From Lichina pygmaea (Eukaryota; Ascomycota; Lichinomycetes; Lichinales; Lichinaceae), in assembly GCA_963422465.1 (NCBI GenBank), contig OY730175.1, positions 186,001 to 250,000 on the forward strand: 64,000 nt of DNA, written 5' to 3'. Both the position numbers and the translations under genes were made by a program. Below the pieces are notes generated by a model. The model was not told where the DNA came from. It ran no database searches and saw only the letters and a list, made by a program, of their open reading frames with translations. Of the stretch, positions 2,112 to 63,569 are shown one piece after another. How positions within the stretch are numbered: position 1 is the stretch's first letter; each line of letters opens with the position of its first letter.

Positions 2112-2154
<43 letters not shown>

Positions 2155-33591: not shown

Positions 33592-33596
33592 CTTCT

Positions 33597-34596: not shown

Positions 34597-34873
34597 TGTC
34601 ACAGTTCTGGCCCAGTTGCACATGTGGCACAAGTCACGCACCTTGCCGGGAAGTTCCATCTGCACTGTTGCCTGTTTGCTCCGCTGTTGCCTGATCCCCT
34701 GCCTATAAGAACTTCTCCTGCTCCCCCAGCTTCTTCTCTTCTTCTTTTCTCTTTTTCTTCCTTCCTTGTCTTTTGTCTTGTACATCAATCCAAGTCTCAA
34801 GTCTCAAGCCAAGTCAGGTCAAGGTTACTGAATCAGTTAGGCTTGAGTTCTGCTCTGCCATTGCCTTGTCACA
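34597..34873 (+). repeat. 5' LTR of Gypsy element 1 (copy L3)
   Basis: 277 bases with one copy of the 49-base unit plus a short CCGCTGTTGCCTG duplication. CCTATAAGAAC may be its TATA region. Confidence 0.85.
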
Positions 34874-34931
34874 CTACGAAAGACCTACCCAACCATAACA
34901 CACTTCACCAAGCCATGTTCACGTCCTTGTC

Positions 34932-35890: not shown

Positions 35891-35899
35891 CTTGGTCAT

Positions 35900-38800
35900 C
35901 GTCACGCCCAAGAACATGAAAAGGATCTCCATGTTGGCTATCTGTCTCCAGACCAGCAATTGGACAGCAAGTGCTTGTTTCTTCCTTGTATCCTAGATGG
36001 GAAATTCAAGTGCAATGCTCTTCTTGACTCTGGCTGTTCAGTATTTGGCTGCATTGGTGCTTCCTTTGCGCAATCTCTTCACCAAGAACCTCTCCCCTAC
36101 CCACGCACATTGTGATCGTTCAATGGCAAGACATCACAAACCACGCATCTCGCCAAGACAATCATGACCACAGCACATGGCGTACACCAGGAAGAAGTCT
36201 CTCTCTTTGTGTCTCCTGGTCTTCACTATGATGTGATTCTGGGGATGCCATAGCTCCAGAAGCACAGGCCACACATTGATTAGACAAACACCTTAATCAT
36301 GTTCAAGTCAGATCACTGCTGATCTGCATACCTCAAGTCAAACAATAGCTATCCAATCTCTTTAGATCTTGAAGCCAAGATGTCTGCTGGAAAGCCTCAG
36401 AATCCCAAGCCCCTTTCTGCCACACCAATCCCCATCAATGCTGCCACATTTTCTCTCCTTGCTGCCAAGCCAGATCACCAGGTGTTCAGTGTTTCTCTGA
36501 GAGACATTGAGCAGGTGTTGAAGCCAAAGAAGTGTGTGGATCCTGCCACACTTCTCCCTGCTCAGTACCACAAGTTCCTGGATGTCTTCAGCAAGGATGA
36601 CGCTGACAAGCTTCCTCCTCTACACCCAGGAGTTGACCACAAGATCAAGATGGAACCAGGAACCCAGGCACCCTCTGGACCTCTGTACAGCATGAGCAGA
36701 GAAGAACTTGAAGTTCTCAAGAAGTACCTGACAGAGAACCTGAACAAGGGCTTCATTCGAGCATCTTCATCACCTGCTGCTGCACCAGTCCTCTTTGTCA
36801 AGAAGCCAGGAGGTGGATTACATTTCTGTGTAGACTACAGAGCACTCAACACTATCACCATCAAGAACTGTTACCCCCTGCCACTGATCCGGGAGATGTT
36901 GGACCAGCTTTGCAAAGCTGTGTGGTACACCAAGCTTGACATTTTTGGTGCCTTCAACTGTATCCAGATGAAGGAAGGTGAAGAATGGAAGACTACGTTC
37001 CGCACACGCTCAGGCCTCTACAAATACCTTGTCATGCCCTTTGGTCTTGCCAATGCTCCAAGCATGTTCCAGAACTACATCAATGATGTTTTGGGACCTG
37101 ACATCCTTGACGTCTTTGGCACTGCCTATGTGGATGATATCCTTATCTACAGTCAGACACTCAAGGAACACCAGAAGTACGTCAAGCTTGTTCTCAGTTG
37201 ACTACGAGATGCAAGCCTGCAAGTTGACATCTCCAAGTGTGACTTTGAAGTGTATCAAGTCAAGTACCTTAGCCTCATCATTCAGTCTGCCACTGAAGAC
37301 AGCTGACCCAGATCTGTGAGCATGGACCCAGCCAAGACTAACGCCATCAAGGAGTGGAAGCCTCCTGCCAGTCTCAAGGAAGTGCAGAGCTTCATTACCT
37401 TTGTAAACTTCTACTGCCAGTTCATCAAAGACTTTGCCAAGCTTGCATCCCTGCTCACAGCTCTGACCAAGAAGAATGTTGCCTTCAAGTGGGAAACCCC
37501 AGAGCAGTGCTTGTTTGAAAGCATCAAGAAGGTGTTCAGCACTGCACCCATCCTGCAGCACTTTGATCTGGAGAAGGAGTGTGTTGTTAAGACTGACGCT
37601 TCTGACTACGTCTCTGGTGCTGTCCTGTCACAGCCAGACCATGAAGGAGTTCTACGCCCTGTTGCCTTCTTGTCACGCTGCCACCTGCCAGCAGAATGCA
37701 ACTACAAGATCTACAACAAGGAGTTGCTGGCAATTGTCTGTGCCTTTGAAGAATGGCGAGCAGAGCTTGAAGGATCTCCAGAACCTGTCAAGGTGATCTC
37801 TGATCACAAGAACTTGGAGTACTTCATGTTGTCAAAGTGCCTTTCCCACCGTCAAGCCTGTTGGAGTGAGTTCTTGTCACACTTCAATTTCAAGATCAGC
37901 TACTGTCCAGGCAGTCAGTGCAAGGCTGACGCCCTCACTCGACATTCCCAAGACCTCCCGTCAGACAGTGATCCCTGTCAAGACTTCATAGAGTAAGTCG
38001 TCCTTAAGCCCAAGAATCTTGCATATTCAGAGGTTCAAGTCAAGCCTATCCAGATCCTGAGATGTTCAGAAGCTGCACCAGTTGACACTGAACCTGATGC
38101 TGCACCTCTTTCAGATGTCATCCAAGCTGCCTATAACAACCTTGCTGAAGGTGATCCAGTGGCAACAGTGTCACAGATGCTAAGGGATAGTGTCAGGCAC
38201 AGTCGAGAAGTGTCTCTCTCAGACTGCAGCTTGGAAAATGACTGTCTCTTCTACAAGAACTGACTCTGGATCCCTGAGAACAATGAGCTACACCTACACC
38301 TGTTCCAAGAAGCCCATGACCAAGCAATGGCTGGCCACACTGGGATTGCCAAGACCCACAATCTTCTGTCTTGTTGGTACTATTAGCCAAAGATGGTGAA
38401 CATCATACGGCAGTACATCAGGAATTGTCATGTCTGCTCTCGAGCAAAGCCTGCCTGTGATCGCCAAGGAGAGCTGCTGTCTCTTCCTGTGCCTCAGCAA
38501 TGTTGGCAGGATCTGGCTATGGATTTCATTACTGACTTGCCCAAGTCAAGAGATACCTACTTCCCTGGTGCCAAGCACATCTGGGTCATCACTGACTGTC
38601 TCACCAAAGAACACCACTTTGTGCCATGTGCTGAGATGACAACCTCACATCTTGTCCAGATGTTTATCCAGTTTGTTGTCTGTACCCATGGCTTGCCCAG
38701 GAGCATTGTCTCAGACAGAGGAGGTCAGTTTGTCAGCTCATTCTGGAAAGTACTCTGTGCCCATCTTGACGTCATGCTACGACTATCCTCAGGACACCAC

Positions 38801-39648
38801 CCAAAGACAGATGGTCAGACAGAACAAGAGAATCAGGAGCTTGAACACTACCTGAGATCCTATGTCAACTATCTCCAAGATGACTGGGTCCAATGGCTTC
38901 CTCTGGCAGAGTTCACGCAGAACAACTCCCAGTCTGATTCCTCTGGCATGTCACTGTTCTTTGCCAACAAAGGGTTCCATCCACAGCTCAGCATCACACC
39001 CACGAGTGAAGCCTGCAACCAAGATGCTATGGAAATCTCTGGAGAAATGACGCAGATTCTGGAACAGTTGCAAGCTGAACTCCGACTATCCCAGGAAGCT
39101 CAAGCTCACACTGCCAATTTGCATCAAGTCCCGTCACTGTCCTATCAAACTGGAGATCTTGTTTGGCTGAATACCAAGAACATCAGGACACGCCACCCAT
39201 GCAAAAAGCTTGACGACAAGTGGATTGGACTATTCAAGGTGTTGAAGACAGTCGGAAGCTGTGCCTGCCATCTGGAGCTTCCACACACTCTCAAGATCCA
39301 CCCTGTCTTTCATGTTTCCCTTCTACGTCTGACACCTGCTAATCCTATCCCTGGCCAATCAAATGAACACCCTGGCCCTGTCATTGGTCAAGACACAGAT
39401 GAAGAGTTCCAGGTTGAAGAAATCCTTGACTCCAAGCCAGCAATGTCTTGACAGAAGTTCAAGTACCTGGTCAAATAGTCCGGATGGCCAATTGAAGATG
39501 CCACTGAAGAGCCTATTGAGCATCTTGACAACACCAAAGACACCATCTACAACTTCCATAAGAAATACCCAAGGAAACCACGGCCACGGAACTACACCCA
39601 CGAGCAGCCTGAGGCTCACAGGAGTTTGCCATGTGAAGGAGGGGGGTA
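35900..39648 (+). pseudogene. Gypsy element 1 pol: protease, RT, RNase H, integrase, chromodomain
   Basis: Protease: LLDSGCSVFGC near 36020. RT (36380-37200, open): FCVDYRALNTI, LVMPFGLANAPSMF and YVDDILIYSQ with both catalytic Asp. RNase H (37316-37996): VVKTDASDYVSGAVL, YNKELLAIVCAFEEW. Integrase (38393-39200): MDFITDLPKS, VSDRGGQFVSSFW, DGQTEQENQELE. Chromodomain remnant near 39406-39540 (FQVEEILDSKPAMS...KFKYLVK). Stops fall mainly at expected Trp (TGG to TGA or TAG) and Arg (CGA to TGA) codons, including two within the chromodomain. Confidence 0.87.
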
Positions 39649-41460: not shown

Positions 41461-42547
41461 TGTATAACTCTTGTGGTCAGGCCTTCCTTCTGAGCATGAT
41501 GGTAGCATTTGACAAAGCGCTTTTTCTTGACAGGAGCTGCATTATCAAGGATATCAAGCTCAGATATTTGCTTGTGGTAGTGGCTTTTAACTGCAGAAAA
41601 ACAACTCAGATCCAGAGACTGCAAGACATGGGATGAGTGTGGAGGAATGTAGACTACATAGACATTATTCTACTTGCAAATCCATTGGAATTCCACTGTA
41701 GTATAGCTTCCATGTCCATCAAGTAGAAGCATCTGTGGCTGTTCCCCCGCCTGGTTTCTGGCAAAAAAAGCTTATTCAACCAGTTGATAGCAACATAGTT
41801 TGTAGTCCAGCCACAGTCTGATGTGGTATAGATCCAGTCTGGCACCTCCTTATGTGTAAACCAGCTGGTTTGTGGTGCCTGTCCTTTGAAAATAACAAGA
41901 GGACAAGACTTTGCTCCAGCAGCAGAGATTGTCTCCAGAATGGACACCCACTCTTGATTCCCAGGCATTTTCTTGTATGTCCACTTCCTGGACAAGTCTC
42001 CAATCACCTGGCTGTTTGTACAAGTCCCTAGAGCTATCCCAGTCTTGTCCATGTTCCAGATATCCTGGTGTTCAATGTTGTTCTGGAGTTGCATAGTCTT
42101 GAACCAGTGGAAGAAGTTGTTAAGAATGTCTGGATGGATGTTATCAATCCTAGAGGATATAATAGGCCTTCCAATGATTGAGGCTATTGATGGATGACAC
42201 TGAATGAACTTCCGCAGCTATTTGTTGCCAAGATCTGTAGTGTCTCTATTTGCACGTAGGATTTGAGTTGCCATATCTCGGGCAAAACTATGGGAGGGGG
42301 GGTGTCCTGTTGCTTCCTGCTCAAGGGTCCATGTGACCAGGTACTCCTCCTGGTAGGGAGTCAAGTGCCACTCAGGTTCATGGGCAATTGCTTGTGATGG
42401 CCGACTCTTCATGTGTTGACCAAGAGTGGCTTGTGAGATGTTGTACGCAGTTGCTGCAGCCCGGATTGAGCTGAAATGACCAGCTTCCAGATCCTCAATG
42501 GCCTCCTGAATAGTCTCCTCAATAGAATCACTATTGTTTGGTGCCAT
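41461..42547 (-). pseudogene. Fot1/pogo-like transposase, amino-terminal part
   Basis: Starts at the ATG at 42547 and reads towards lower coordinates. The first ~60 residues resemble a psq-type helix-turn-helix (AAATAYNISQATLGQHMK). A CENP-B/Tc5-type helix-turn-helix follows, then a DDE_1 core beginning near IWNMDKTGIALG. It is broken. A TAG near 42218-42220 replaces an expected Trp (GNK-stop-LRKF), and one extra G in the G5 run near 41740 shifts the frame just before the second catalytic Asp region. After the shift the frame continues through PPHSSHVLQSLDL. At 41461 the coding sequence is cut by the LTR insertion and resumes at 9586 in phase (VIQ...AGWRATGLVPYNP). Not functional as it stands. 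Confidence 0.88.
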
Positions 42548-42946: not shown

Positions 42947-43746
42947 GTCGGACATCGCTGCCGAATCCTCGTTCTTTCTGAAATTAGGGGGTGGACGACG
43001 GGCACTTGTATAGGGAAGTACTGCAAGGTGCTTCTCGTACGGGGAACCGAAGGGGTATAATAGCGAGAGGTCTGTGTGTATGTCCAAGGTACGTACATAG
43101 GAATGTACAGATACGTATGTACTTCGTCTTGCTTTTAGGAGCAGGTACGTCGGACATCGCAATGGGATTGGTGTCAAGTAGTACCTGTAGGTATAGCCTT
43201 ACTTGCAGGGAGGACGAGGTATCTTGTGAGGTTGCCTTCCTTCGAAAGATGGGTGACGTACGTATGTACGGGGTAGTAGCTGCTTTTACGAGTACGAGTA
43301 CGAGTACAGAACGATAGGTACCGCAGAACAGATGTGTTTTCCGTCGGACATCGCAGAATGATTTGCGTCACCTGTGGCTTCTTAGGCTTGTCGGCGAATC
43401 CATTGTCCCGACATGGCTATATCGAGTGTCTCTTAATTATTTATTTGTCGGACATCGCAACATTGACAAAGGGAAGCTGCTGACTTATATCGTTTTGGCC
43501 GTAATGGCTTGATTGCATTACCTAATGGTATCGTACGGTGCGATATCTCCTGAGTGGCAGAGTACTCCGTACGGAGGTACTTATGTACGAGTACACGGCA
43601 TACCAGTACATACGTACATACGTACGTTCCGTACTTCGTACTCGTACCGTAGGTTTCGTTCCATCGGAAGAAGTCTGGAGAAGCAACACCAAACAATCAC
43701 CAAAGCCTCGTCGGAGGATGTTGCGCCCTCCTCCGTCGAACATCGC
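42947..43746 (+). repeat. Five direct copies of GTCGGACATCGC
   Basis: Copies start at 42947, 43149, 43343, 43447 and 43735 (the last has GTCGAACATCGC). Three are followed by a GATTTGCGT-like or GGATTGGTGT-like sequence a few bases on. Two more copies lie at 56553 and 56731. No reverse-strand copy was noticed. Confidence 0.8.
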
Positions 43747-44298
43747 AACAGGATTTGCGTTGCATGCGACTACGCTACGAGCCGACCAATTGACTTTGGT
43801 GAATCACCGTCAGCCCTATGGGCTAGCTCATATCAGAGCCGGAGAGTTTCGAGAACGGTCGCCCTTGACGATTAGGAGCAAGTCTGAAAGTGCTGTAAAA
43901 GTCCAACACTGTAGTACGGGATATGAGGGACTTCTTTACAACACTCTGTACCTGGTCAGGTGTGCCTCGAAGTCAGGAACAACGACCAAGGGGCCGTCAA
44001 TCGCTAGGCACGCGCAGATGTGCGGTCGGAGACACTCGACATGATCAGCACCCGAGGAGATTGAGGCTGCCTCGTTCTTCGACGGCTGCGGCCACGTAAC
44101 GCCCCTTCTCCACAGGTCCCGTGACTCTCGAAGGCGGTTGATGCGGCTACGGCGATGGTATCGGGAACGCGCTTCAAGGGCAGGGTTGTCGGAGGATGAT
44201 TTGTTCCGGTGCCGCCATCAGCCGGGTCCGTATCCGTGCCTACATCTGAATGGATGTATCGTTAACTGCGGCGGCGCACACCCAAAGAAAGATCAATC

Positions 44299-47438: not shown

Positions 47439-49299
47439 ATGGTGAGCCTCGCCCGAGCCCGGCCGTCGACGCCCGGCAAGTCAACGCGCCACGAAGACGG
47501 TCCGGCGCCGCCTGTCCCCGAAGGCCGATCCATGTCTCCGCCACCGGAGCCGGCTCAACGTCGAACGAGTTTCAACTTCCTTCGTCGGAGCAAGTCGGGC
47601 GAGACGCTGTCGCGTCGAAGCGCTTCTGGTTCGAAGATCGTCAAGAGACAGCAGGTCGCGCAACAACAAGAGCGGTCGCGCCGGCAACAGGAGACCGCTG
47701 CCCAGACGCCGCCAGCGCTGCCGACGCTGCCGGTGCTGCGACCTCCGCCCCCGATGAACACCTTTGGCGACGAGAACGGCTCGGGCACACCGCCTCGACA
47801 GGGACTCAAGGTGCCGACGATGTCGTATTTCAGGGGCGCTCCGTACACAGACCCGCCGACGGCTCCTCCTTCGGTGCCGATCCCGCCCATCCCGGACAGC
47901 GACCCTCGAGGCCGCAGCGAGAGCATGGCCCACCGGGGTCGGTACAGCTACGCGAGCAGCGTCGTGAGCACCGTCAACGGCCCGCGCCGCGTGCGTCGGA
48001 GGAGGGACCCCACGCCCTACAAGTGAGTGCGCCCGGCGCGGCCATGTCGATGGCGCTTTCGCTGACGCGGCCGACAGCATCCTGGTCCTCGGTGCCAAGA
48101 GCAGCGGCAAGACGGCCTTTCTGAACTTCCTGCGGACGTCGCTCGCGCGGCCGTCGAAGAAGAAGCGCGGCCACGTGGCGGCGGTGCAGGAGACCGAGGC
48201 CGAACGAGGCGCGGGCCAGGCCAAACGGCCAGCCTCGGCCCATCCGGCCTTCAGCTCGCACTTCCTCGAGACCGAGATCGACGGGGAGCGGGTCGGACTG
48301 ACGCTGTGGGATTCGGACGGGCTCGAGAAGGGCATCGTCGGCCTTCAGCTCCGCGAACTGAACTCCTTCCTCCAGAGCAAGTTCGCCGAGACGCTCGACG
48401 AGGAGATGAAGGTCGTGCGCTCGCCCGGCATCCAAGACAGCCACATCCACTGCGTCTTCCTCCTGCTGGATCCCGCGAGACTCGACGCGAACATCGCCGC
48501 GGCCCGGAAGAGGTCGCGCGCACCGCAGCCGAGCGGCGTCAACGGGGTCGGTGCTCGGGCCCCGCCTGTCGTCGGGGGGCTCGACGACGAGTTCGACCTC
48601 CAGGTGCTGCGAGCGCTCCGGGGCAAGACGACGGTCGTGCCCGTCATCAGCAAGGCCGACACGATAACGATGGCGCACATGGCCTTCCTCAAGAGAGCGG
48701 TGTGGACCAGCGTCAAGAACGCGCGCCTGCATCTTCTCGAGGCGCTGGGAGTGGACGACTCGGACGTCGATGCCGGCGACAGCGCCGCCGACGACGACGA
48801 CGACGACGACGACGACAATGACGCCGCATCCGACGGTGGCGACGATGACAGGTCGTCCGCGAGCGTGCTCGTCCGGCAGTCGAACGTCGACGCCGACACG
48901 ACGGACGAGAACGAGCCGCCGCCGGGAAGCGCCCAGTCGTCTCCCGCGACGGACAAGACGCAGCTGAAGATGAAGAAGAGGAGGAAGAAGGAGAAGGAGA
49001 AGGAGAAGAAGAAGAAGAAGGGCGGCGTCTCGGACCCTCTCTCTCGACAGTCGGCGTCTCCACTGCCGCTGCTTCCGCTGTCGATCATCTCGCCCGACGA
49101 GTACGACATCGAGGAAGGCTTCGTGGGCCGGCGGTTCGCGTGGGGCGTCGCGGACCCGTACGACGGCGACCACTGCGATTTCGGCAAGCTCAAGGAGGCC
49201 GTCTTCGCCGACTGGCGTCGTGACCTGCGCGACGCCAGCAAAGAGATGTGGTACGAGCGCTGGAGGACCGAGAGGCTGAGGCGGAACACCAAGGGCTGA
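47439..49299 (+). CDS. Septin-domain GTPase with disordered N-terminus
   Basis: Exons 47439-48022 and 48078-49299 (55-base intron) give 601 residues. Residues 1-190 are Pro/Ser/Arg-rich and look disordered. The G domain follows: P-loop GAKSSGKT (200-207), DSDG as the G3 DxxG (273-276), the septin-type DSHIHCVFLLLDP, and SKAD as G4 (386-389). After a D-rich run (near 432-443) and a K/E-rich run comes HCDFGKLKEAVF...MWYERWRTERL, the usual end of the septin G domain. Septins bind GTP and form filaments at septa and the cell cortex. The long acidic and basic block sits between G4 and the terminal part, where classical septins have a short segment. There is no clear coiled-coil tail. It therefore resembles the divergent septin-like proteins of filamentous fungi and not the core Cdc3/10/11/12 types. 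Confidence 0.85.
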
Positions 49300-49837
49300 C
49301 GTCGGCCGTCTCGATGCGTCTGTCGGATCGGGGACGTGGCTGCCCGTGCACGTCTTGGTTGAGGAGGTGGCCGTCCGTGCATATCTTGATCGGAGACGGC
49401 GGACCGGAGGATATCGACTGGAGAGGGAGTGTGGCGCGATGGGGAGATGAGGGGGTGGAGATGGACGTGCGAGGAAGGAGGGTAGCATTCCTCTGCTCTG
49501 GCGTATGCGCAAGGGGGGGGGAGGTTGTCTGCATTGGTTTGGCTTGGTTTGGCTTGGGCTTGGTGTGGCTTGGTGCGGCTCACCTTGGTTTGGCTCGACT
49601 TGGCTCGACTTGGCTCGACTTGGGGGCTTAATTACACCACGACATACGTATCAGGGCCGAACATGCAGCAGCAGCTTTTTTTTTCCACTCAGTTGGAATT
49701 GTATAACATGATACCACCACTTGTTTAATTTTACTCTCTCCTGTCTCTTCCCTCTTCTCCTCCTCCTCTCCTCATCTTTTCCTTTCACTTCTCTTCTTCT
49801 CACCTTCCTCTCGTCTCGTGTTTTTTCTTTCCTTTCC
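49300..49837. other. Intergenic region with TTGGCT-type tandem repeats
   Basis: 49530-49622 consists of variants of TTGGTTTGGC and three close copies of TTGGCTCGAC. The remainder (49700-49830) is pyrimidine-rich. No gene seen. Confidence 0.6.
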
Positions 49838-50115
49838 TGTTGACCGGGGAATCTACTCCGTACGGAGACTTGCCCGAGGATGGATTTGCAGGGGTGCACG
49901 GAGCAGGGAGCAGGGAGCAGGGAGCAGGGAGCAGGGAGCAGCCTCCCCCCTGAGCGACGGCTAAATTGTCGTCGGCAGGCACGTGACCAGCCTGCAGAGT
50001 GTTCCTCCTCTTCTTCTCTGTCGTCGCTCCTAGATTTTCGTCGGACAAGAGAGACGAATCTACGTTACACAGTTGACCGGTTGTCAGCTATCAGCACCTC
50101 TCCACATAGTCGACC
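49838..50115 (+). repeat. Dispersed repeat, copy 2 (empty-site copy)
   Basis: Matches 8535-8940 but lacks the 154-base LTR. It contains instead a CTACTCCGTACGGAGAC palindrome (49852-49869) and a GGAGCAG minisatellite. Confidence 0.75.
49900..49941 (+). repeat. GGAGCAG minisatellite (six copies)
   Basis: Six perfect head-to-tail 7-base units. The equivalent point in copy 1 has no expansion. Confidence 0.93.
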
Positions 50116-50351
50116 GGTTGTCAGTTTTCATTTCCTCTTTCCCTTCTTCTTTCTCTTCTTCCTTTCTCTCCTCTCTTCTTTTCACCTCTCTCTTCCTCTC
50201 ACTTTCTCTTGTCAAGTATTCCTTCTTTTCTTTCTTCTTGTCTTTCCCTTTCTTCTTCCTCTTCTTCTCTTTTTTTTCTACAACTTTTCAAACCCCTACC
50301 TCAGTCAGGTGCCATGGGGGATGGCTGGCCCAGGTCACTTTTGTGACAACT
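50116..50351 (+). repeat. Pyrimidine-rich tract
   Basis: 50120-50285 is almost entirely C and T on the plus strand, with irregular TTCCTTTCTC units. No coding content. Confidence 0.7.
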
Positions 50352-51789
50352 AATCACCAAACTAGGCCTGCGACGACTCAAACCTCCACGCGGTGCAGGC
50401 TGGGAACCTCGGGGCAGCGATGGCAGGCAGTCTCCCAAGCTGCTTGTAGTCGCTGCACCGAGAGCTAATTGAGTCACCGGTCGAGCTGCTGGTGCCCGTG
50501 GAGCGACGGGCCCCGGAGGTGTCGCGCAGGCACCCTGGACGCCCCCGTGAAGCAACATCAGCAGAACAGAGGACTGCGACCAAACTGGTTATGAAAACCA
50601 CCCGACGGATGTCTACCGTGTACGCTACGGCCCGAAGCCAGCCCTGCAGCTGGTGGATGTGAAGTCTAGGCATCCGACAGGGCACCTCTGGAGTAGTCGA
50701 GAGGAGTTCTCATCGCACACCCCCCTTCTAGCAGAGTCTCTAGCAGCTAATGCATCGAGGATCTTGTTCTAGGAGGGGAGCAATATCTGCACCGCGGCAT
50801 TGTTAATCAAACGGGGAATACGTGTTCAAGAAGGCGAGCAGGCAGCCCGGAGGAAGCCCGCCGCTCCAGTGCCTAAGGGCCGTGTGATAGCCAAAGTGCT
50901 GGCTTGATGGTTTTGCCTAAGGCCTTGCCACAGGTTCCCTTCGGACTGCCTGTGGACCAGGGCTGGGGCACTGGAGATTCTCTGTTCGGAGGTTCTCTGT
51001 TCAGAGGTTCTCCGGTGGGTCACCACGTACAACCGGGGCCCCACAGGCGACAGCGGGCAGATTGAGACTCCTCCCTACTTGGTTAGTGGGCTGGAAAGGT
51101 GGTCCTGCAGGTGCTGGCATGGCCTGCAGGGTCCGTAGAGCCTGCGAGGCATGGTCAGCCTCTGTACAAGAGATCTACAGAGGTAACGTGAAACAGCAAG
51201 AGCTGCGGGGTGTGGCATATAATGGCAGTGATGGCAGTAGGGTCTGGGCCTACTTCAAGACTGTCTATATGGCCCGAGAGGACAGAAGCGCATACCAGTC
51301 TGTACAGAGTGCAGGCTCAGGCTGCAAATGACGGGCTCAAGGAGCAAACTACAGTTGGAGTGTGGGCTCCAGGCTGGCAACCCGGCACTCCAAAGCAGGA
51401 CCTAGGGGTGAGCGTACACAGCAGAGTGCAAAAGGTCTCAGGACTGCGGGGAAGTGTGGCAGAGACCCTGCACAGGATGTCGACTCTGTGCTATGCCTTG
51501 GCATAGCTCAACTGTGGCCACGTACTGACAGCACTTCTCAGATGGACAGCCAGCTTCCTGAAGGATTGCCAAACCTCCTGTCAAGGGCTAGACGTCGATG
51601 ACAATCAATAGATTCCTATTGTACAAGAAGGTAAAGCTGCAGAAGAGAAATGCAGCGCAGACAGGTAAAAACACGAAAAAGTGGCGCGAAGTCAGCTGAC
51701 TTGCCGCGTGGCCACGTGACTTAGCGGTGCTTGCGGTCTGCCCTGTGACACCTCCCTAGTTCTGGGGTGATGGCAGAGCGACACTCACC

Positions 51790-53140
51790 AGGTGTCCACC
51801 GGCATACCACAAGAGTTCCCAGTCTCCCCAATCCTTTTCCTATTCTTCAACAAGGATCTGGTCAACTTCTGCACTCAAGGAACCATAAAGGTGTCAGCTA
51901 TTGGCTTCATTGACAATGTCAACATCCTAGTGGTTGGCAACAGCACAGAAAGCAACTGCCAAGTGCTTGAACACATCCACCACAGCTGCACTGCCTGGGC
52001 CCACCACCACAGAGCCACCTTCACACCACACAAATACAAGTTGATGCACCTGACTTGTTCTCCAAGGTGATTCAACATGGCTGCAGGTGTCAACCTGGAG
52101 GGTACCACCAAGGCCCCGCAACCAACCCTCTGGATACTCAGCATCCTACTGGACCTGAAGCTCCGCTGGGGACTGCACATAAAGCGCACAGCTGAAAAGG
52201 CAACACAGCAAAGCTGGGCCCTCTCCACTATCACAGGATCCACCTGGGGAGCCACCTTCAACAAAGCACAGCTGATCTACAACACTGTGGTGCACCCAGT
52301 CATCACCTACAGAGCAACAGTGTGGAGCCTGTTGGACAGTCTCCTGAGGCCAGTGCACTGACACTGGATCAGAGACACCCTTGAACAGCAATAACAACAC
52401 TGCCTGTGGTCAGTCACTGGTGGCTTCAGGGCTACCAGCCAGAAGTAGCTTGAGAGTGAGGCTGCTGTCCCACCCCTCTGAGCGCACATGGCACAACTGC
52501 AGCTACAGGTGCACACCAGGATGGAAGTCTCCGGGGTCTGGACAAAGATTCAAGAGGCCTGCAAACAGCTCAAGTGTCAGCTGGCCTGACAACTGGGCTG
52601 ATGTTGCCATGCCTACATCTCACCAGGCCAGGCATGACACCGCTGGGCAGAGTCAATCCTCTGGCCTCAGCAGCCACTGGAATCCACCAAGAGGTCTCTG
52701 GGCCTGCCCCTGTGGGCTGACAGCCACCCTGCAGTCACTCCACCCCTAGGCACTCCCCCACAACCAGTCTGGCAGGCCTGCTTGCTATTGGAGCAATGGT
52801 GCTGGGAGTGATGGCACAAGCTCCACAGTGGGCCCCCACCTCAAGTCCAGCTGCTGGACCCAGATCCTGGAGGGGGAGACAACTGGAAGCCAGACAAGAT
52901 ACTGTACTGGGTGTCTCTCCAGCTTTGTGCCAGCCTATCCAAGACCCAAAGCAGCATCTTAACACAGATGCGCACAGGTAAGATTGGGCTGGCAGCCTTC
53001 CTCTGCAGGCGATGAGTCCCCAGCTTCCTGACACTGGCTTGTTGCTGCAGAGCGCAGTGGGAGACTGCCAAGCATGTTGTTCTGGAGTGCCCACACCTGC
53101 AGCAAGTACACCGCAGTCTTTACACTGCAACTGCTACTAC
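51790..53140 (+). pseudogene. LINE family 2 ORF2 remnant (RT to zinc knuckle)
   Basis: 51792-52070 reads TGIPQEFPVSPILFLFF...AIGFIDNVNILV, the RT palm with PQGSP changed to PQEFP and the catalytic FxDD changed to FIDN. 52077-52361 continues with the thumb region (NKAQLIYNTVVHPVITY). Broken frames near 52980-53140 resemble the terminal C/H knuckle (CRAQWETAKHVVLECPH). Several stops. Confidence 0.75.
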
Positions 53141-53268
53141 TGACTACCAGGTGATGATCTCGCGCCTGTGGCCTGCCACCGCCCTCACCTTGTGGGTCCT
53201 ACGCCACGGAGTTCTCTCCCAGTTCTCCTGGGCTCAGGAGCAGCTGGATACTGGTTACTAACCAGTCA

Positions 53269-53284
53269 CCCCCCCCCCCCCCCC
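53269..53284 (+). repeat. 16-base poly-C tract in the LINE 3' region
   Basis: Uninterrupted C16 between the ORF2 remnant and the (TCAA)n tail. Confidence 0.9.
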
Positions 53285-53383
53285 ATGTTCTACAGATTAC
53301 TCAAGAGGATAGCGCTGCCTGAGGCACTGCAGGGAGTTGACCCAGTGTAGCCTAGATACACTAGTGCTAGAATAGTGTAGGAA

Positions 53384-53406
53384 TTCAATCAATCAATCAA
53401 TCAATC
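53384..53406 (+). repeat. (TCAA)n tail of the family 2 LINE
   Basis: Five to six copies of TCAA end the element, merging into the TSD AATCACC. Simple-repeat tails instead of poly-A are common in fungal LINEs. Confidence 0.88.
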
Positions 53407-53678
53407 ACCAAACTAGTTTCTCTTACCCCCACTGCCAAGCTGAACCAGCTTCTATGTCCGAGAAGACCGAGTGGGGGAGCCTAATCATCGGAAGAAATAT
53501 ACTCGTAACTCTTTACAAGAGCTGCACCCAATGATCAATATCTGAGTGGAAAAAGCTTCCCCCTCATCTCACTGACCCATCCATCCATCCATTTCATGTG
53601 ATCTTTGTGGGCGCCGCCAATGTCCAATGTCCAACTTCCTCCACCCCTTTCCACCAAACACAGATATGACCAGATCGT

Positions 53679-56259
53679 TCACTTCCCACCAGGAGGAGCC
53701 CTTCTCGTGATGCAGAGCTCGGTACAGAACTCGCCAAAGTCGCCCCTGGTGGCCTCGCTGACGGCCGTGACCAGTTCCTTGCCGTACCGCACCTTGTACT
53801 CGACCTTGATCGCGTCGAGATGCGCGCGGTCCCAGTGGTACCGCACGAGCCGCGATATCAGCAGCTCCGTGCGCGACCCGCCAGACGCCGACGCCGCCGC
53901 CGATCCCCCCGCCTCGACGCTCTCCTCGAGAGCGAGCGCCTGGTGGATCAGCAGCGCGTCGCGCAACGGTCGGTTGATGGCGCCGTTGAGAATGTGCGCC
54001 ACCGTTTCGCCCTGCGTACAGTGACCGGTGTCAGAAAGCCTGCGTACGGACGGAGGGACCGTCACCGGCCGAGCTTACCACGAGGTTGGTCGACTTGCGC
54101 AGCACCTCCCTGGCAAAGTTCTTGCGGTACGTCTTCTCGTACTGCGTGAGCACCTCGCGCATGTGCATGTTGCTGCGGAGCACGACCGTCTGCAACATGG
54201 CCGTCTCGCCGCCCTGGCGCGCGACGAGGGCGTCGTGGAGCCGACGCACGTCGTCCTTGACCGCGTCGACGTAGACGTAGTGGCTCTCCTCCTGCCGGCG
54301 CTCCTCGAGCGCGAGCAGGATCGCGACCCGGAACTTGTCCGGCTTGAGCTCGGCCTTCATGCACCTCTCGAGCGAGTCGTTGTAGCGCTTGTCGCTGAAG
54401 GCGGCCTTGATCTCGCGGATCTCGGCGTTGCTGCGGCCGATGAGCGACTCGATCAGCAGCTCGCGCCGCGACGTGTTGCTCTGGTACCAGAAGTTGGCCC
54501 AGTACGCCTCGCTCTCCCACCGGCCCAGCGCCGTGGCGTAGCACGCCTTGCCGAACCCGCCCGACCCGAGCTTCATCTTCAGGTGCTTGGCGATGTTGAT
54601 GCCCTTGCCCTGCACCTTGGCGAACTTCTTGTACTCGTCGCGCAGCTGCAGCATCTGATCGTGGCTGAGCCGCGGCAGGATGTCGATGAGCGGGTCCAGC
54701 TCGACGTTGCGATGGCGCAGCGTCTCGGCCAGGTCGCGCGCGTCCCGCTCGGGATCGTAGAACTTGACCTTCTCCTTCGTCTTCTCCTTCGTCTTCTCCT
54801 TCGCCTTCTCCTTCGCCTTCTCCTTCGCCTTCTCCTTCGTCTTTTCCTCCACCTTCGACTTGCTCTCCCTCTCGGGCCGCTGCTGCTTCTTCTTCTTCTC
54901 TTCGGTCTTCTCGCGGATCTTCACCTGCACGACCCGCATGTCTCGGACCCGCTCTCGCTCCCTCGCCCGCGCCCTCTTGCGCTTGTGGTCGTCGTTGTCG
55001 TCGTCGTCGTCCGAGCCGCCCAGGCCCGAGAGAGGCGTCAGATCGCTGAGGTCGTCGTCGTCCACGGCCGACGGAAGCGCGATCGGCGACGGCATCGGCG
55101 ACATGGACTGGTAGGTGCCTCGGTAGGCCTCGAGCAGCGGAGATCCCGGAGGCGCCGCCCCGACCTCGACATGGCCGCTGGCGCCGCCGCTCACGGACAG
55201 GCGGTGCATGCGGGGACCGAGACCGGGCGACGGTGGCGCGGGAAGCGCACCTCCGCCGGGGTGCACCTCGACGACGTGCGCCTTCTCGGACCGGGACGCA
55301 GACTTCTCGGCCGCGGCTTTGACCTCGGCGGGCTTTGGCCTGGGCGCGGCGTGCTCGAAGGTCGACTCGGTGCTCTTCGGAGCGCTTTCGTCGGTGGCTG
55401 GCGTCTGAGGGTTGTAGTTGTAGCTGATCCGACCGTCCGGCTGCGCGTACTGGAACATGCTCGGCCTCGCATAGCCCATCTTGGGCTTGGCATAGTCTGG
55501 GCTGGTCGTGTTCGGATCCCTCGCACCTCGGTGGGCAGGCCCTGTCGGAGCAGCTCGGCCGGCACCAGCCGCGGTCGCAGCGAGCTCCGGCGTGTGGCCA
55601 TAGTCGTAGGCCGGAGGCGAAGCGTACGAGGGCGTCCGGTGCTGTCCCGGCGGAGGCGCGCTGGTCGGGGCGACGTAGTTTGGCGCGCCACCGTATGGAT
55701 GTGCCCCGGCGCGATCTGCGATGGGCGAACTCGGCGTCGGTGCGCTGTTCTCCACATTACGCGGGGGGTATGGGTATGTTCCTGGGTTCGCATGCTGCGG
55801 AGTGCCCTGGCCCTGTGGCGGTCGCCAATCGAAGGCGGGCTGCTGACCGTACTCCCCAAAGGCCGTCGGAGGCCCCGCCGGCGGCTGCGGGGCCGCGTAC
55901 TTGACGTAATGCTCTGGGTTGGCGTAGCTGGCGTTGACTTGACCGTGCTCGTAAGGAGTCGGCTGCGCGTAGTCCGCGTCGTGTCCGGGCTCCGGGGGAG
56001 CGGTCTGCTCGATGTCGAACTGGCGCCGCGGCGTTTGCGTATACGATGGATGAGGCATCGGCACATCGATGTGCGACGGGGGATCCGGTGCTTGCGGCAG
56101 GTCCGCGTAGCCGTACGTCGCAATCGCGTAGGGGTAGCTGCGATCAGGTTTGTCGCTCTCCTCCGGCGGCGCACGGCCTCGACCAGACGCCCGAGCCGAC
56201 AGCCTTCCCGGCGACTTGGAGCGCGACGAAGGAAAGGCGCCGGGTGCGTTCAGCGACAT
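53679..56259 (-). CDS. Annexin (fungal annexin C7-like) with YAxP-repeat N-terminus
   Basis: Exons 54079-56259 and 53679-54011 (67-base intron GTAAGC...GCAG) give 837 residues. The start MSLNAPGAFPSSRSKSPGR matches the usual fungal beginning. About residues 60-260 carry repeated Tyr-Ala-x-Pro motifs (DYAQP, SYANP, KYAAP, SYASP, DYAKP, GYARP, QYAQP). A Lys/Glu coil of repeated KAKE/KTKE follows (near 480-500). The last ~330 residues hold annexin-type helical repeats: LIDILPRLSHDQMLQLRDEYKKF, IREIKAAFSDKRYNDSLERCMKAEL, GETVAHILNGAINRPLRDALLIHQAL. Annexins bind acidic phospholipids in a Ca2+-dependent way. The classical GxGT loops are poorly kept, so calcium binding is doubtful. An upstream in-frame region to 56397 lacks an ATG. 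Confidence 0.88.
54770..54850 (-). repeat. Coding 12-base minisatellite in the annexin gene
   Basis: About seven copies of a CTTCTCCTTCGY unit (plus strand) encode the KAKE/KTKE run. Length is likely to vary among strains. Confidence 0.85.
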
Positions 56260-57107: not shown

Positions 57108-58809
57108 CTAACGGCCGACACCCAAGCCCGGGACAGATCGAGTGGCTGGCGCCGGCGGAGATCCCGGACGAGGCGCGGATGATCCGAGACCGACGTATCT
57201 CTTGAACGCGCTAGAGACGGCACCTGGGAGCCTTTGCAGTCGCTGAACGATGCCCGGCGTCGTGGTCCAGGGCGCTTCCGTGACGACCATCTCGGTTCGG
57301 TCTGTCGGTGGTGGGCTAGACGGGTCGTCGTCGCCTGCGTCTCCCGGCCGATCATGAAAGCCGTTCGGACGCTGCCCAATGCCCCTCCTCGGGCCTCTCG
57401 GCCGGCCTTGGAACCATCTCGGACGCCGCCCGGTGCCCTTCATCGTGGCCTCCGGCTCGGACGAGGTGGATGCGCACTTCCGCAGCCGATAATAGAGACG
57501 GGTGTGTTGGAGGTACTTTGGCCGAAGCTCCCGGTACAGTTCTAGCTCTTCTGGCGTGCCGATGCCAGCATCAAGTTGGCGTCTCTTTGCTGCGTTTTCC
57601 GACCCGCCGAAGAACTGCTGGTACATGTTGAAGAACGGCCGCGACTCCTCGAGCAGCCGGACCTCGTCAGACATGCTCGCGGGATACCTGATGTCTATTT
57701 CCTCGGGCCCCTGATACCGTTTCTGCGTTTGACGCATGTAGGCATTGTACTTTCCTTTGAGATCCTTGAACCGATCGAGTTCCTCTTTGGTACCTTCCCC
57801 CCGCCTCATTTGAGCCAACTTCTCGGGGTTTCTCTTGAACTCTCTTTGGTATTGGAGGTAGTCGGGGCGGAGCAGGTCCAAGACATTGGCCTCCTCACAC
57901 GTGTACTCGCGGACCTGCTGATCCCTTATCCGCTGCTGAGCTCTGACGCGCTCGTACTCCTGGAATGGCCCAACAAGACGGTTGTATTTCTTGCGTTCTT
58001 CGGTCGACAGTTTGGTGATCCACTTCTTGCCTTTTTTACCCCGAAACTGTCGACGGTATTCCATCCATTGCTGTCTGATTCTTTCCAGCTGCTGGGGCGT
58101 ATGCCTGTTTTCGAGCGCTCTTGCCTTTTCTCTTGCCTTTGCCTCCTTATTTCGGGCGGCTATCACGGCTCTCTGGGATTTGTACCTCATCGACGCACTT
58201 CTCAACCGTTCGTATTCCTCAAGCTCCTCTGGTGTTGCTGTCGGGGATGCGGGGTTCGCCAGCGACTGATCGATTCTTTCTTTGATCTCTCGTCCCCGCT
58301 TCGATCGGTACTTGTCCCGGAGCTTGCGATGAAGCTTCTCGAGCTCTTTGAGTTCCTCGTCGGTGATGTCGTCGCCTGTCCCGTCAGTGCGCTTTCTTAG
58401 ACGACTCCTCAGGTCGTCGGTGTCCGAGTCGGCCTTGCGACTCTTCACGGTGACGCCGCTCAGCATGTTCTTCTCCGGGCCGTCGCCATCGAGGACCAGG
58501 CCATGTCCGAGTCGTAGATCGCCGTCGTGGCCAACGGCAGCGTTGTTCTCTACACCGTGGTCAGGTCGCAATTCAAGTCGACGGCGATCAAGTCGCTGCA
58601 GGGACCTACCGGTTGGCTGTACCGGACTCGCCAGGTCATGGACCGTGCCTTCGAGCCTCACGCCCTTCGTACGAGAGTAAGTGGGAGGGAGGGAAATCGA
58701 GGTGTAGAGTGCAACGTACCGGTCCAGCTTCCAAAGGCCTGGCCACCACCAGCTCAAAAAACAGCACGCCCGCGGTCAGGAGCGGACCAACGGCCTCCCG
58801 CATCTTCAT
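57108..58809 (-). CDS. Secreted protein with eight degenerate helical repeats, function unknown
   Basis: The first exon, 58720-58809, encodes 30 residues starting MKMREAVGPLL with a clear hydrophobic secretion signal and ends at donor GTACGT. The second exon runs to 57108. The acceptor is uncertain: AAG before 58664 (55-base intron), CAG before 58616 or CAG before 58595; all keep the same frame and give 548, 532 or 525 residues. The body contains eight units of about 24 residues, spaced 31-45, near TxEELxxYxxLRxxYxxY. Examples are TPEELEEYERLRSASMRY, TKEELDRFKDLKGKYNAY and TPEELELYRELRPKYLQH. Most units are followed by a Lys/Arg cluster. The carboxy part has an RPRG-rich stretch and a Pro/Thr-rich region. 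I know no family with this pattern. A secreted effector, a surface protein or a Kex2-processed repeat protein are possible; none is shown. Confidence 0.7.
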
Positions 58810-59566
58810 GAGTGTGTACCGTTGGCGCTCTCTGCGCCTGCAACGGCGGTTCTTGAAAGAGGACAGGAACAAAAGCCCTCCCTTGTGCTTGGTTCGAGTC
58901 CTCTAGCTCGACGGGCCGTACTGTCATCCCTCTGGCCAAGAGGGTGACTGAAATGTCACCGACGATCCATGGCATCTATATGAGGATGAGAACGTTCGAA
59001 GGCTCGTACAGCCGTCTTCTTGGGTTGGAGGAACGTGCCATTTCAAGCACGTCTTTACGGCGTTCACTGCAGGAGTGAAACTGTTTATGAGGTGCAGGAT
59101 CGATATTGTGACAGCTGATAAGGAACCTTACACAGAAGTTTTCTGTGTGGATACGACCAGCTGGCCGACGATCCGAGTTGCGGTGGCCTCCGGTGTCACC
59201 ACGACGTCTTCCCCTAAGGCGGATCGGCTCAGCTTGTCTCACTCACCTGTTGGGCTCTTCTCCGGGCTGTCTCCGTACGGTGAGTGGCTCGTCCGTACCG
59301 TAAACCTGCTCTTCGTTAGATGCTACTGACCAGCAGCTCTTCACGTCAGATCGCAGCCTCTCTCTCCACCGTACGGAAGTACATCTTGTGTCGTCATGGA
59401 CATCTCATTGGTGCTCTTGAAGCGCCCTTTGAAGCTTCATACACAAGGATTGACGTTCGACGTAACCGTACCACAACCACATCTTTGTGGGATTGAGCCC
59501 TACGATAGAGGAATGTCATTAACCTGAAGTCGGCGTTTGATTAGTGAGCTCGCGAGACGATACTCT

Positions 59567-59584
59567 GTACTCCGTACGGAGTAC
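59567..59584 (+). repeat. Perfect 18-base palindrome GTACTCCGTACGGAGTAC
   Basis: A self-complementary sequence. Close relatives occur at 1123-1133, 42831-42843, 43561-43581, 49852-49869 and 59706-59716, all outside genes. Confidence 0.85.
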
Positions 59585-60106
59585 ATACGTACATACGTAC
59601 GTATCGTACGTGTTACAGGTCCTCTCCGTACGTTAACCTCCAGAACCTCCAACGGCCATAGTCGCACGGAGAAAACGAGGTGTCACGTTACGCATGTAAG
59701 GTACTGTACGGAGTACATACGTGGACAGTCCCTCCGCACCGTTATCGGACATCCGAACGTACGTACGTGCGTACTGGTACGAGTGCGATACATACCTCGT
59801 ACGAAGTAAGCAGTGCAGTAATACGTACGTAGTACGGGATACTAGCAATCAAGAGGAAAGCAGGCTGCGAGAAAGAAGTCTTAGGACACGTCGGAGGAGA
59901 GGGTACGGACGTGCTCTCATTACTTTTGTCAGCAACAATGTCTTCGACTACATTTCTCAATCTCCATCAGGTCCACACCGCTTCTTCAAGTCCAGAGACT
60001 TTACGGAGGCCCGCGCCAAAAGTATTCGGAGAGATTTCTATGAGAGTGACAAAGGTTGTGAGACTATCCCGTAGTTCCCCTCCCAGTACGGAAGTAAATT
60101 TTTTGT

Positions 60107-60532
60107 CGGACAATTACTGTCGGTGCCCCCCCTCTTACTTCAATGCCCCCCTCGCTTAGCAAGGTACTTATAAGTTTGTGGCAGTCCCTTGTGATGTTAA
60201 GTACTCCTAAACTTTGGAGGCATCAGCCACCCGACCGAGCAACCTTACACCACTGACAAGTCCCCACACCCCCAAAAATACCACTTATGACTTCAAAGAT
60301 GTGTTCTGACTTGATGAGCGTAGAGCTAAGCATTTGATGCGACCGAGAAAAAAACTTGACTGAATATGATGTGGTGCGTGATACCTTGAAGACTTATGAC
60401 AGCCATGGGCTGTGTGGGTTGAAGAGATACCTCGCTTTACATGGAGGGGCTCGCCAAAATACATGTACCGACTTATGCGAGGGGGCATCGAAGTTATAGG
60501 GGGGCACTGGGGGGTACCGCAGTAATTGTCCG
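60107..60532 (+). mobile_element. Probable 426-bp MITE with ~55-bp inverted ends
   Basis: Ends CGGACAATTACTG (60107-60119) and CAGTAATTGTCCG (60520-60532) are perfect inverted copies. The similarity extends inward for about 55 bases through GGTRCCCCCC and CTTCRATGCCCCC. Flanks TTTTTTGT (60099-60106) and TTTTTTTGT (60533-60541) could be an 8-base target duplication with one T slipped, as for hAT elements. No coding capacity. Confidence 0.72.
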
Positions 60533-61895
60533 TTTTTTTGTTCTTGTTGTTGTCCACCACCACACCACCTCTATTGTTTGAGGTCTTGAAGTCTGAAGTT
60601 CTTAAGTATCTTCTCATAAAGCTCAGTCTTCTTCCTGTTCCAAACCGTCACTATTCTTATCATTGTTGTTATCATCACTGTTCTTGTTCTTGTCTGGGGG
60701 GTTTGTGACTGGATGGTACTTAGCCACAGTCGTATATAACCTGACAGATTTGGTAGATTGTGCTGGAAGAAAAGTCTGTAAGATCACTGATATGCTTCAC
60801 AGGTATATCTTCTTCAAGAAGAGCAAGCACACATGCTTTCTGTGCAATGCTGATACTTTTGTTGGCTGTGGTTTATCAGTGGTGTGGGGTCGGGTGAGGT
60901 GGTTTTGGTGTAGTCTCATCACTTTTTGGTGGGATTCCGAATACTTCTGTCGCCAGCCCCCGTACGCAGGCGTTGGACATGCAAGTCGCAGACTTGACCG
61001 CCATACCCCGCCTGCTCGTACTCACCCCCGCTGACTAAGCACGTCGGCCGCTGTCGCAAGCTGAGAGCCCATCAAAGACCATCGCACGACGTTCTGAGCT
61101 CGTTGCGCAGCTCTATAGTCAACGACGTTGGTCACTGCCTGAAGTGACACCTTGTTTCTAGAGTACCATGCCGTACTCGCTCTATCCGCCTCAGACATCT
61201 CTTTCCATCGTGAAGCATGCCAAGACGCGGTCGTTCCACTGCGAGGCTTTTGCGGATGGCCGCACACCTGGCTCCAGTGGCCAGGTACCGTACCTTACGT
61301 GAATCTGTTCGAACATCGATGGCATGCCGCCGGTCCCACCAGGAGCCGGTCTTGATAGGTGCAAACGATGACGACCGGCAAAGCTTTCCATTTGGCTCCG
61401 TTGGTATTGTTCGTTCACCAGAGCCTCTCCACGTCTATGCCAAACGCTTGCTAGGAATCTGGGATACCTGCTTAGGTCAACCTGCTGTTCGACAGTGTTG
61501 GCATGATTTTTATGACAAGAACTGTCCCTAAGCTGGAGTATTTCATCTCGGCTGATATAGCACCGGCAACTTGCGATGTTGTGGATTGAGTGTGCTGCTC
61601 TGTCGCATACATTTGCTGATCGGCATCACGGAGTGGCATGTTCCGAGATGAATATGCTCACCGTGCCCGGGCCTGGCTGCCTGAAAATCGGAAGTCTCCT
61701 TGCCCAGATCTACAATTCACTTTCTAGAATGGTACTGGTGATATTCACCTCTTGCCACCTCGCAAGGCTCTCAGGGCGTGTGCATATAGATCACACACTC
61801 CCAGTCTCCGCTGTGGATATTGTTGATATATATTCTCTCCGCTGCTCAGCTGCGTCTGGTTCTCCAGTCTTTTGGCCACGCTTCTTGACTGCACA

Positions 61896-63569
61896 ATGGC
61901 TCTTTCAACTTCTACAATCTTCGCCGACGACGAGCGAGTCGTCATCTCTCTGCCTGGGAACTTCGAAGGGCTCCCGGTGGGGTTTCGTTATACCACCTTT
62001 CTACTGAACTCGGATGGCTTCACGACGAGGACGCTGGGATGGACAGACGATCCAACCGCCTTTCTCCAGAGGCCTACGACGAATACGGTGAGTGGCCTCT
62101 CGTCGTGCGAGCCCAAGGCGGACACGGGAGCTCGATGGTGGCGACACTCCATGTCGATCCGCATACCGATCCAAGCTCTGTTACTATCTGGTTCGAGAGT
62201 CTGGACTTACTCGGTGCAGAACCTGATACCGCCGCTAAGAACCGCCACCGCCCTGGAGACGTCTGTGGATTCCAATGTCTCGACGTGGTCTCCCCCGAGG
62301 GAGGGCGGCCTGGACCCATTTTCAAACCCGTCGTCACCACGATCTACGTCGGCGATGTCTAGTCCTTCTCGAGTCGCCGCTTCTCCGACCGTGACCACCA
62401 GTCTACGCCCCGAAACCTTGCCCGTCACAGGTACCTCGGCAACAACTGCTACAGAACCTGACTCTTCCGAGTCTTCGATCGTTCCACCCGTGAGCGAAGG
62501 ACAGAGCTCTTCGTCAGCGCCTGGCGTCCCAATCAACGTTGCGATCGGGGTTGGCGGCGGTCTCGGCACGGCTGTCATCATCGCGGTCGTTGTGTTCTTT
62601 GTCAGGAAGGCCCTCCGCAAGAGATCGAAGGCTGCCGTGATGCCTCGGGTTGACAGCCAGGACGAACTCGAGGAAGTAGCCCCGGTAGGGAGTGCAGGAG
62701 CGCCGAAACCTCAGGCTCTCCGGGTCCAGCGGGTTGGAACGTCGGCCGGGATCGGAGAGACGGATGAACCAGGCGAGGATGACCTGGCACTGAGCACTAG
62801 CCTGCCACGACCGCGGCAGTTGCGGACTGTCGACCGCGAACCGGCTCGACGGCGGAACAAAAGTCGAGAAGCATTGGCGGCCCTGTCTTCTCAGGGCCTC
62901 GAGCTGCGCGCGCTGACGCCGAGGGTGCAGTCGCCGCGGCCTAAACCGCCAACGCGGCCTTGGAAAGGCTTTCTCGATGCCGCCGACTACGACCTGATGC
63001 GGCGCATGCCAGCGCCGCTCTCGGTGACGGAGGACTACAGCACCAACGCCGGCGAGGGCAGCGTGGATGGGTACTGGCAGGAAACGGCGTCCTTGAGGGA
63101 AGAGCGGCTGTACCGACTACAACGACCAGGGCACAGTCCGCCTCCGCCGCCGTCGCCAGGGCCGTCGGAGTCGTCGGCCGCTCGGTACGGGCCGGATCCG
63201 TCTGCGTACGCGCCAACGGCGCCCATGTCTCGGATCCAAGAGATGAGCGACGTGGGCATGACTCCGGTGGTGCGCGATTCCAGCGGCGGAAACACGAGCC
63301 AGGAGGTGCAGGGATCTCCGACCGGCACGGCCGAAGACACGATAGGCCAGCAAAGCTCTTCGCCGATGGGGTCCGGGGACGCTCTCCTCGAGCGCGAAAC
63401 ACGCGTGGATCGGTCCGACCCACAGCCGGCGGAGGAGCAGCCCCCCGAGGGACATGACGAAGAGGAGGCTGCACATGGTCTCTCGACGGCTGCGGGCAAG
63501 CTACCCGCCAAAGACAGCCAGGCGCCTGACGTGCTGCCGCACGACCCGCCTTCGGGCAACCGAATCTGA
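61896..63569 (+). CDS. Ser/Thr-rich single-pass membrane protein
   Basis: 557 residues from the ATG at 61896. The outer part (to ~210) becomes Ser/Thr/Pro-rich, as in mucin-like stalks. Residues ~213-236 form a membrane span with a Gly-rich start (VAIGVGGGLGTAVIIAVVVFFV), followed by the stop-transfer RKALRKR. The ~320-residue tail is Arg/Pro/Glu-rich and probably disordered and cytosolic, with a PPPPPSPGP stretch. The layout resembles fungal Mid2/Wsc-like surface sensors, but I recognise no WSC or other named domain. The amino end is doubtful: no signal peptide is present at this start, and a GTGAGT donor at about 62092 suggests that an intron, and perhaps an upstream exon, is missing from the model. 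Confidence 0.68.
   Translation: MALSTSTIFADDERVVISLPGNFEGLPVGFRYTTFLLNSDGFTTRTLGWTDDPTAFLQRPTTNTVSGLSSCEPKADTGARWWRHSMSIRIPIQALLLSGSRVWTYSVQNLIPPLRTATALETSVDSNVSTWSPPREGGLDPFSNPSSPRSTSAMSSPSRVAASPTVTTSLRPETLPVTGTSATTATEPDSSESSIVPPVSEGQSSSSAPGVPINVAIGVGGGLGTAVIIAVVVFFVRKALRKRSKAAVMPRVDSQDELEEVAPVGSAGAPKPQALRVQRVGTSAGIGETDEPGEDDLALSTSLPRPRQLRTVDREPARRRNKSREALAALSSQGLELRALTPRVQSPRPKPPTRPWKGFLDAADYDLMRRMPAPLSVTEDYSTNAGEGSVDGYWQETASLREERLYRLQRPGHSPPPPPSPGPSESSAARYGPDPSAYAPTAPMSRIQEMSDVGMTPVVRDSSGGNTSQEVQGSPTGTAEDTIGQQSSSPMGSGDALLERETRVDRSDPQPAEEQPPEGHDEEEAAHGLSTAAGKLPAKDSQAPDVLPHDPPSGNRI

Follow-up and report, generated by a model that had tools for sequence, protein, structure and literature searches.

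A likely secreted protein with eight degenerate repeats and a candidate Kex2 maturation site

The locus and its gene model

We analyzed a window of 64,000 nucleotides from a genome of 32,469,017 bases in 8 contigs. The contig that holds the window (3,229,784 bases) begins with telomere repeats, which places the gene described here about 244 kb from that telomere. The gene lies at 58809-57108 on the minus strand, has a two-exon look and, on sequence evidence, looks real. A neighbouring annexin gene on the same strand, most of whose protein is encoded at 54031..56238 with the last exon further downstream, served as a yardstick for synteny and divergence. Its product has a long Pro/Tyr-rich N-terminus, and its proposed last intron (GTAAGC...CTGAC...CGCAG) provided a local yardstick for splice signals.

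Exon 1 (58720..58809, minus strand; MKMREAVGPLLTAGVLFFELVVARPLEAGP) has 30 codons, ends in phase 0 and is followed by the donor GTACGT. It would encode a signal-peptide-like N-terminus, with a Glu inside the hydrophobic stretch. The proposed intron (58596..58719, minus strand; GTACGT...CTGCAG) follows the splice consensus with matching phase, and exon 2 (57108..58595, minus strand, stop codon included) was drawn from the open frame and codon usage. The repeat frame is open from 58775 to 57108, or 555 codons. Two in-phase YAG acceptors would yield a protein of 525 residues (exon 2 from 58595) or of 532 residues (the acceptor ...GTACAG on the minus strand, exon 2 from 58616, frame unchanged). 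An earlier reading of these letters, which we call the sequence-only reading, had proposed a clean signal-peptide exon here; its coordinates, strand, first exon, donor and in-phase acceptors were all confirmed, and we infer that this exon is spliced to the repeat frame.

Codon usage was modelled on 40 long open frames drawn from 20 stretches of 10 kb. By this model the repeat frame outscored the other two frames of its strand in 25 of the 30 windows with starts from 58545 down to 57240; upstream of about 58545 the signal is weak. The database model of the window's protein, P0002, opens within the proposed intron, and intron sequence accounts for its residues 1-22 if exon 2 starts at 58595. The database model of the ortholog, P0003, starts inside the pro-region. 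These models are a warning that the signal exon of this gene can be missed in databases.

Signal-like starts of this quality are scarce. Starts at least as hydrophobic as that of this gene, with a basic residue close to the front and a consensus donor within reach, were met 5 times in 400,000 strand-bases of this genome, in a count that kept real genes in the background and took this gene's own value as the threshold. At a looser threshold, the 1,006 bases from 59600 to 58595 hold no signal-like place other than that of this gene (two nested ATGs), where about 0.013 would be expected. We counted this rarity in favour of secretion. Together with the signal-like start and the splice phase, it makes it likely, as far as sequence can tell, that the protein is secreted, as the sequence-only reading had held.

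Several other features were seen in the window. A transposon island of lower GC (0.396-0.492 when counted per 2 kb between 12 and 44 kb) spans 11082-42217. It includes one non-LTR element that has both a reverse transcriptase and an endonuclease domain (14811-18059); fragments of LTR-type integrase and reverse transcriptase, accompanied by chromo or Tf2-type domains, at 31352-39448; and part of a DDE_1 transposase (41657-42217). At 47968-49299 a Septin match over the cut-off (E 2.5e-28) marks an unusual septin-like protein with long acidic and basic low-complexity interruptions. One frame in 1957-4043 has a weak Kelch-like match under the cut-off (E 0.00027), and a nearby open frame encodes a basic tail and a hydrophobic stretch that resembles a transmembrane segment; the two are possibly parts of one surface protein. 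A Ser/Thr/Pro-rich open frame at 61872-63569, with one transmembrane-like segment by eye and no Pfam match at E 0.01, is a possible mucin-like surface protein. Outside genes, the word GTAC occurs 33 times in 58810-61000 (8.5 expected) and 28 times in 43000-44100 (4.3 expected), with no enrichment in 49700-53600 (11 against 14.9 expected). Over 200 kb of the genome it occurs 828 times against 747 expected, and GTACGTAC occurs 27 times against 2.8.

The eight-unit repeat and its predicted fold

The repeat region (57477..58388, minus strand), delimited by self-match and model helices, contains eight degenerate units with the motif TxEELxxYxxLRxxYxxYxR. In the window protein the best self-match scores 54, against a mean of 30.7 and a maximum of 46 in 100 shuffles, and 61 diagonal windows score at least 30, where no shuffle had more than 22. 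P0003 shows the same pattern, with a best self-match of 49 (at most 42 in shuffles) and 43 diagonal windows (at most 19). The starts of successive units in the window protein are 43, 45, 31, 35, 37, 39 and 39 residues apart. The sequence-only reading had described eight units of about 24 residues; the eight units do recur, but their true spacing is 31-45 residues and the 24-residue motif covers the first helix only.

We scored the units by a leave-one-out procedure in which each unit was excluded from its own model, with unit starts chosen by eye and a cut of 0.05. In the window protein this recovered units 1 (58293..58364), 2 (58164..58235), 4 (57936..58007), 5 (57831..57902), 6 (57720..57791) and 8 (57486..57557), all on the minus strand, six of the eight (p at most 0.015). 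The two missed were the weak units 3 (58029..58100, minus strand; p 0.315), which scores higher in a shifted register in the window protein and whose register is uncertain, and 7 (57603..57674, minus strand; p 0.215). Six of eight were also recovered in P0003 (p at most 0.035, with unit 3 at 0.035), where units 2 and 7 each reached 0.055.

The second residue of unit 5 is an invariant Cys. A second invariant Cys begins the basic, Gly/Pro/Arg-rich tail (57111..57476, minus strand), for which model confidence is mostly low. The protein as a whole is strongly basic, with a computed pI of about 10. Basic clusters had been reported after most units, and a dibasic pair is indeed present in 6 of the 7 intervals between unit starts of the window protein (KR or RR in 5), yet only 6 of the 13 dibasic pairs in the repeat region are still dibasic in P0003.

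An AlphaFold2 model from two sequences (mean pLDDT 56.5, pTM 0.29) makes residues 101-397 of P0002 mostly helical. Modelled alone, the repeat region is largely helical, with a mean pLDDT of 77.6 and a pTM of 0.39. The predicted local helices are credible. The models bear out helical units, but because the pTM is only 0.29 and 0.39 they do not establish a rod or solenoid shape. The claim that the repeat belongs to no recognised family held up: searches of Pfam and NCBIfam found no family above the cut-off, the best matches lying far below it, and no profile match assigned the repeats to a known intracellular family, the outcome that the sequence-only reading had named as speaking against it. 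Neither the PDB sequence search nor Foldseek, the latter queried with a low-confidence model, gave any match at E 0.001 or better.

Relatives, divergence and the pro-domain

Of 7,998 candidates scored in a search of about 5.8 billion proteins, only the window's own protein and P0003 passed. P0003 aligns to 98% of the query at 61% identity and keeps the eight-unit layout. A profile built from both sequences (7,995 candidates) found the same two proteins only. Within the genome itself, no paralogue was found with the window protein at E up to 1 or with P0003 at E up to 10 (3 first-look candidates scored in each case), and a composite of the repeat at E up to 10 gave three matches, all within this gene (4 candidates). 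Two short peptide patterns turned up no relatives among 165 pattern matches in a prokaryote collection and 536 in a viral collection. The relative and paralogue searches depend on shared short words, and remote relatives could escape them.

The best match of the neighbouring annexin is P0004, at 78% identity. P0003 and P0004 each lie on a contig that is 743,246 bases long; because the lengths agree, we take the two to share one contig and the synteny of the repeat gene and the annexin to be kept. In a single-gene annexin tree of 25 rows (the window and 24 of the 120 matches listed, 446 having passed), the window protein groups with P0004 (100/99), then with P0005 and P0006 (96/89), and next with Peltula and P0009 (85/88, not starred). 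A wider, open fork (83/91) takes in Thelocarpon, Sclerophora, Chaenotheca, Piccolia, Sarcosagium and three further proteins. NCBI taxonomy assigns Peltula to the Lichinomycetes, Chaenotheca to the Coniocybomycetes, and Thelocarpon and Sarcosagium to no class. Because the tree puts the fungus nearest Peltula, it is probably a cyanobacterial lichen fungus; on this one gene, the Lichinomycetes are the best guess for its class.

Between the window protein and P0003, identity is 72% in the pro-region (44 of 61; residues 31-91), 57% in the repeats (172 of 304) and 70% in the tail (86 of 122). The repeat region, the predicted structured part, changes fastest, which is unusual. The rapid divergence that had been suspected from its appearance is thus now measured: 57% against 78% in the annexin, where 576 of 736 positions are identical with 37 gap columns, the long low-complexity start included. 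Within the 24-residue windows, the seven consensus columns are identical at 42 of 56 positions and the other columns at 68 of 136 (Fisher p 0.002, a test biased towards its result in that the seven columns were hand-picked from the two-species consensus). The linkers between motif windows are identical at 55 of 104 positions. In residues 92-395, the charge class is altered in 80 of 132 replacements. Fast repeat change of this kind can also mean relaxed constraint.

Ahead of the repeats lies a putative pro-domain (58389..58595, minus strand). Residues 1-97 of P0002 have a pLDDT below 50, rising to about 90 from residue 101, and are predicted to be disordered. Just ahead of this boundary, LRSRLRKRTDG is identical in the window protein and P0003. 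The invariant LRKR (58389..58400, minus strand; residues 88-91 of P0002), immediately before TDG, is an exact fit to the preference of Kex2 for Arg at P1, Lys at P2 and Leu at P4, as given in the excerpted text of PMC8528282. The two species share two more aliphatic-x-K/R-R sites, whose last residues are 360 and 488. As these are also kept, LRKR/TDG is the best but not the sole candidate for Kex2 cleavage. Over the whole of P0002 there are 21 dibasic pairs, of which 12 are still dibasic in P0003 and 2 of the remaining nine have no counterpart. A gene with a proprotein-convertase P-domain (PF01483), a feature of Kex2, was found on another contig of this genome (C1).

Interpretation and comparison with known systems

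The reading that we prefer, to which we give about an even chance, is a secreted, basic, all-alpha protein of eight repeat units that is matured by Kex2 and acts outside the cell. The signal peptide would route the protein into the secretory pathway, where Kex2 would remove a disordered pro-domain of about 70 residues at LRKR/TDG and leave a mature chain of eight helical units. The Thr-x-Glu-Glu N-cap and the stripe of Leu and Tyr would pack the helices, leaving the remaining positions to change fast. Outside the cell, the protein would bind the surface of a partner, either another organism or the lichen matrix, and this surface would most likely be anionic or proteinaceous. Of the Kex2 precursor put forward by the sequence-only reading, what is supported is mainly a single pro-domain cut at this invariant boundary site, while the release of eight peptides has poor support.

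The strongest competitor, still unlikely in our judgment, is an intracellular basic coiled-coil or helical protein that binds nucleic acid or the cytoskeleton. Translation would then begin with residue 66 of P0002, whose ATG lies at 58466-58464, and the signal-like exon would be a coincidence. The Met at residue 66 is kept in P0003, the protein is very basic, and support from codon usage becomes clear only near 58545, all as such a protein would have it. However, residues 31-66 differ between the species at just 12 of 36 positions, which would be odd for a 5' leader, and the signal exon is rare by chance. These 12 differences, all explicable as single-base changes, bear on a further alternative as well, in which a TAG acceptor before 58549 would produce a secreted peptide of 59 residues in another frame and the repeat frame would be a second product. 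Ten of them alter the first codon position and 2 the second, compared with 54 and 57 elsewhere (Fisher p 0.031; 0.055 when the start residue is left out), a skew that could reflect coding in a shifted frame. The acceptor, GTGTAG, lies downstream of a CTGAC branch-like site at 58564, and the 59-residue product (58549-58455) ends in RRRTC. Nevertheless, by-hand codon work indicates that V56I in P0003 would be a stop in that frame unless there is a further change, and over 58545-58456 the repeat frame has the better codon usage (+0.24 against 0.00, about 0.13 of which is a stop penalty). Since the shifted frame probably has a stop in P0003 and codon usage prefers the repeat frame there, chance is the more likely source of the skew, and we regard this splice choice as highly improbable.

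The divergence of the repeats fits another reading that we consider rather improbable, a structural protein of the cell wall or thallus matrix that evolves under weak constraint and without selection driven by a partner. A basic tail rich in Gly, Pro and Arg would suit such a role, as would a gene that is present in both species with no paralogue found in the genome. What argues against it is that residues 92-395 are ungapped in P0003 and hold the motif positions as others change, a sign of structure rather than free drift, an argument tempered by two small insertions in P0003, one of 3 residues and one of 2, that lie in or beside the repeat region. Less probable still is a Kex2-processed repeat protein (KEP), from which every unit would be freed as a secreted peptide. 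The signal-like start, the repeats and the KR or RR pairs in most inter-unit intervals of the window protein are what one would look for. The excerpted text of PMC6339444, however, describes KEPs as having at least three identical or near-identical repeats, whereas unit 1 of the window protein is only 16-25% identical to units 2-8; Kex2 sites would also be expected between repeats, and the majority of the repeat-region pairs are lost in P0003. The repeat region is, besides, predicted to be helical with fair local confidence.

Beyond the secreted, Kex2-matured repeat protein that we prefer, an effector, surface or symbiosis role may be envisaged. In its most ambitious form, which we put forward as speculation and think rather doubtful, the gene would found a new family restricted to a single lineage of cyanobacterial lichen fungi: secreted, Kex2-matured helical repeats whose exposed face is under partner-driven selection and which serve as symbiosis effectors or in partner recognition at the interface of fungus and cyanobacterium. 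Orphan secreted proteins are common in fungi, and for cyanobacterial lichen fungi we know of no secreted effector whose mode of action has been worked out. The gene offers something concrete to test: a clear candidate for the maturation site, a repeat that is predicted to be structured, and an excess of change in that repeat that can be measured. Its interest is moderate and lies in a repeat that is predicted to be structured and yet outpaces the disordered parts of the same protein; if it proves ordinary, it still adds a new repeat family to the record.

TPR, HEAT, spectrin and oomycete LWY modules are alpha-helical tandem-repeat proteins, and the present protein resembles them as a predicted chain of short helices with a recurring hydrophobic pattern. 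It differs, in a comparison with these modules as a group, in having no Pfam or NCBIfam match over the cut-off and, with a low-confidence model behind the fold search, no PDB or Foldseek match at the E threshold of 0.001. Like KEPs, it has the look of a secreted repeat protein in which most intervals contain a dibasic pair, but its repeats are degenerate and predicted to be folded, and its repeat-region dibasic pairs are mostly lost between species. The closest likeness of overall plan is to the Kex2-processed pro-domain (K2PP) effectors of fungi, which in the excerpted text of PMC8528282 include SnTox3, ToxA and SIX1/4/6. There, a K2PP has an N-terminal signal peptide and, in the first half of the protein, a disordered pro-domain ending in KR, RR or LxxR. 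Unlike these effectors, the window protein would have a mature part made of eight helical repeat units, with two Cys that are invariant; its cleavage and activity are putative, and the fungus that encodes it probably forms lichens and is not a pathogen of plants. Judged from the letters alone, it has in common with them a signal-like start that is rare by chance and a predicted disordered N-terminal pro-domain, followed by a canonical Leu-x-Lys-Arg site and then a predicted folded domain.
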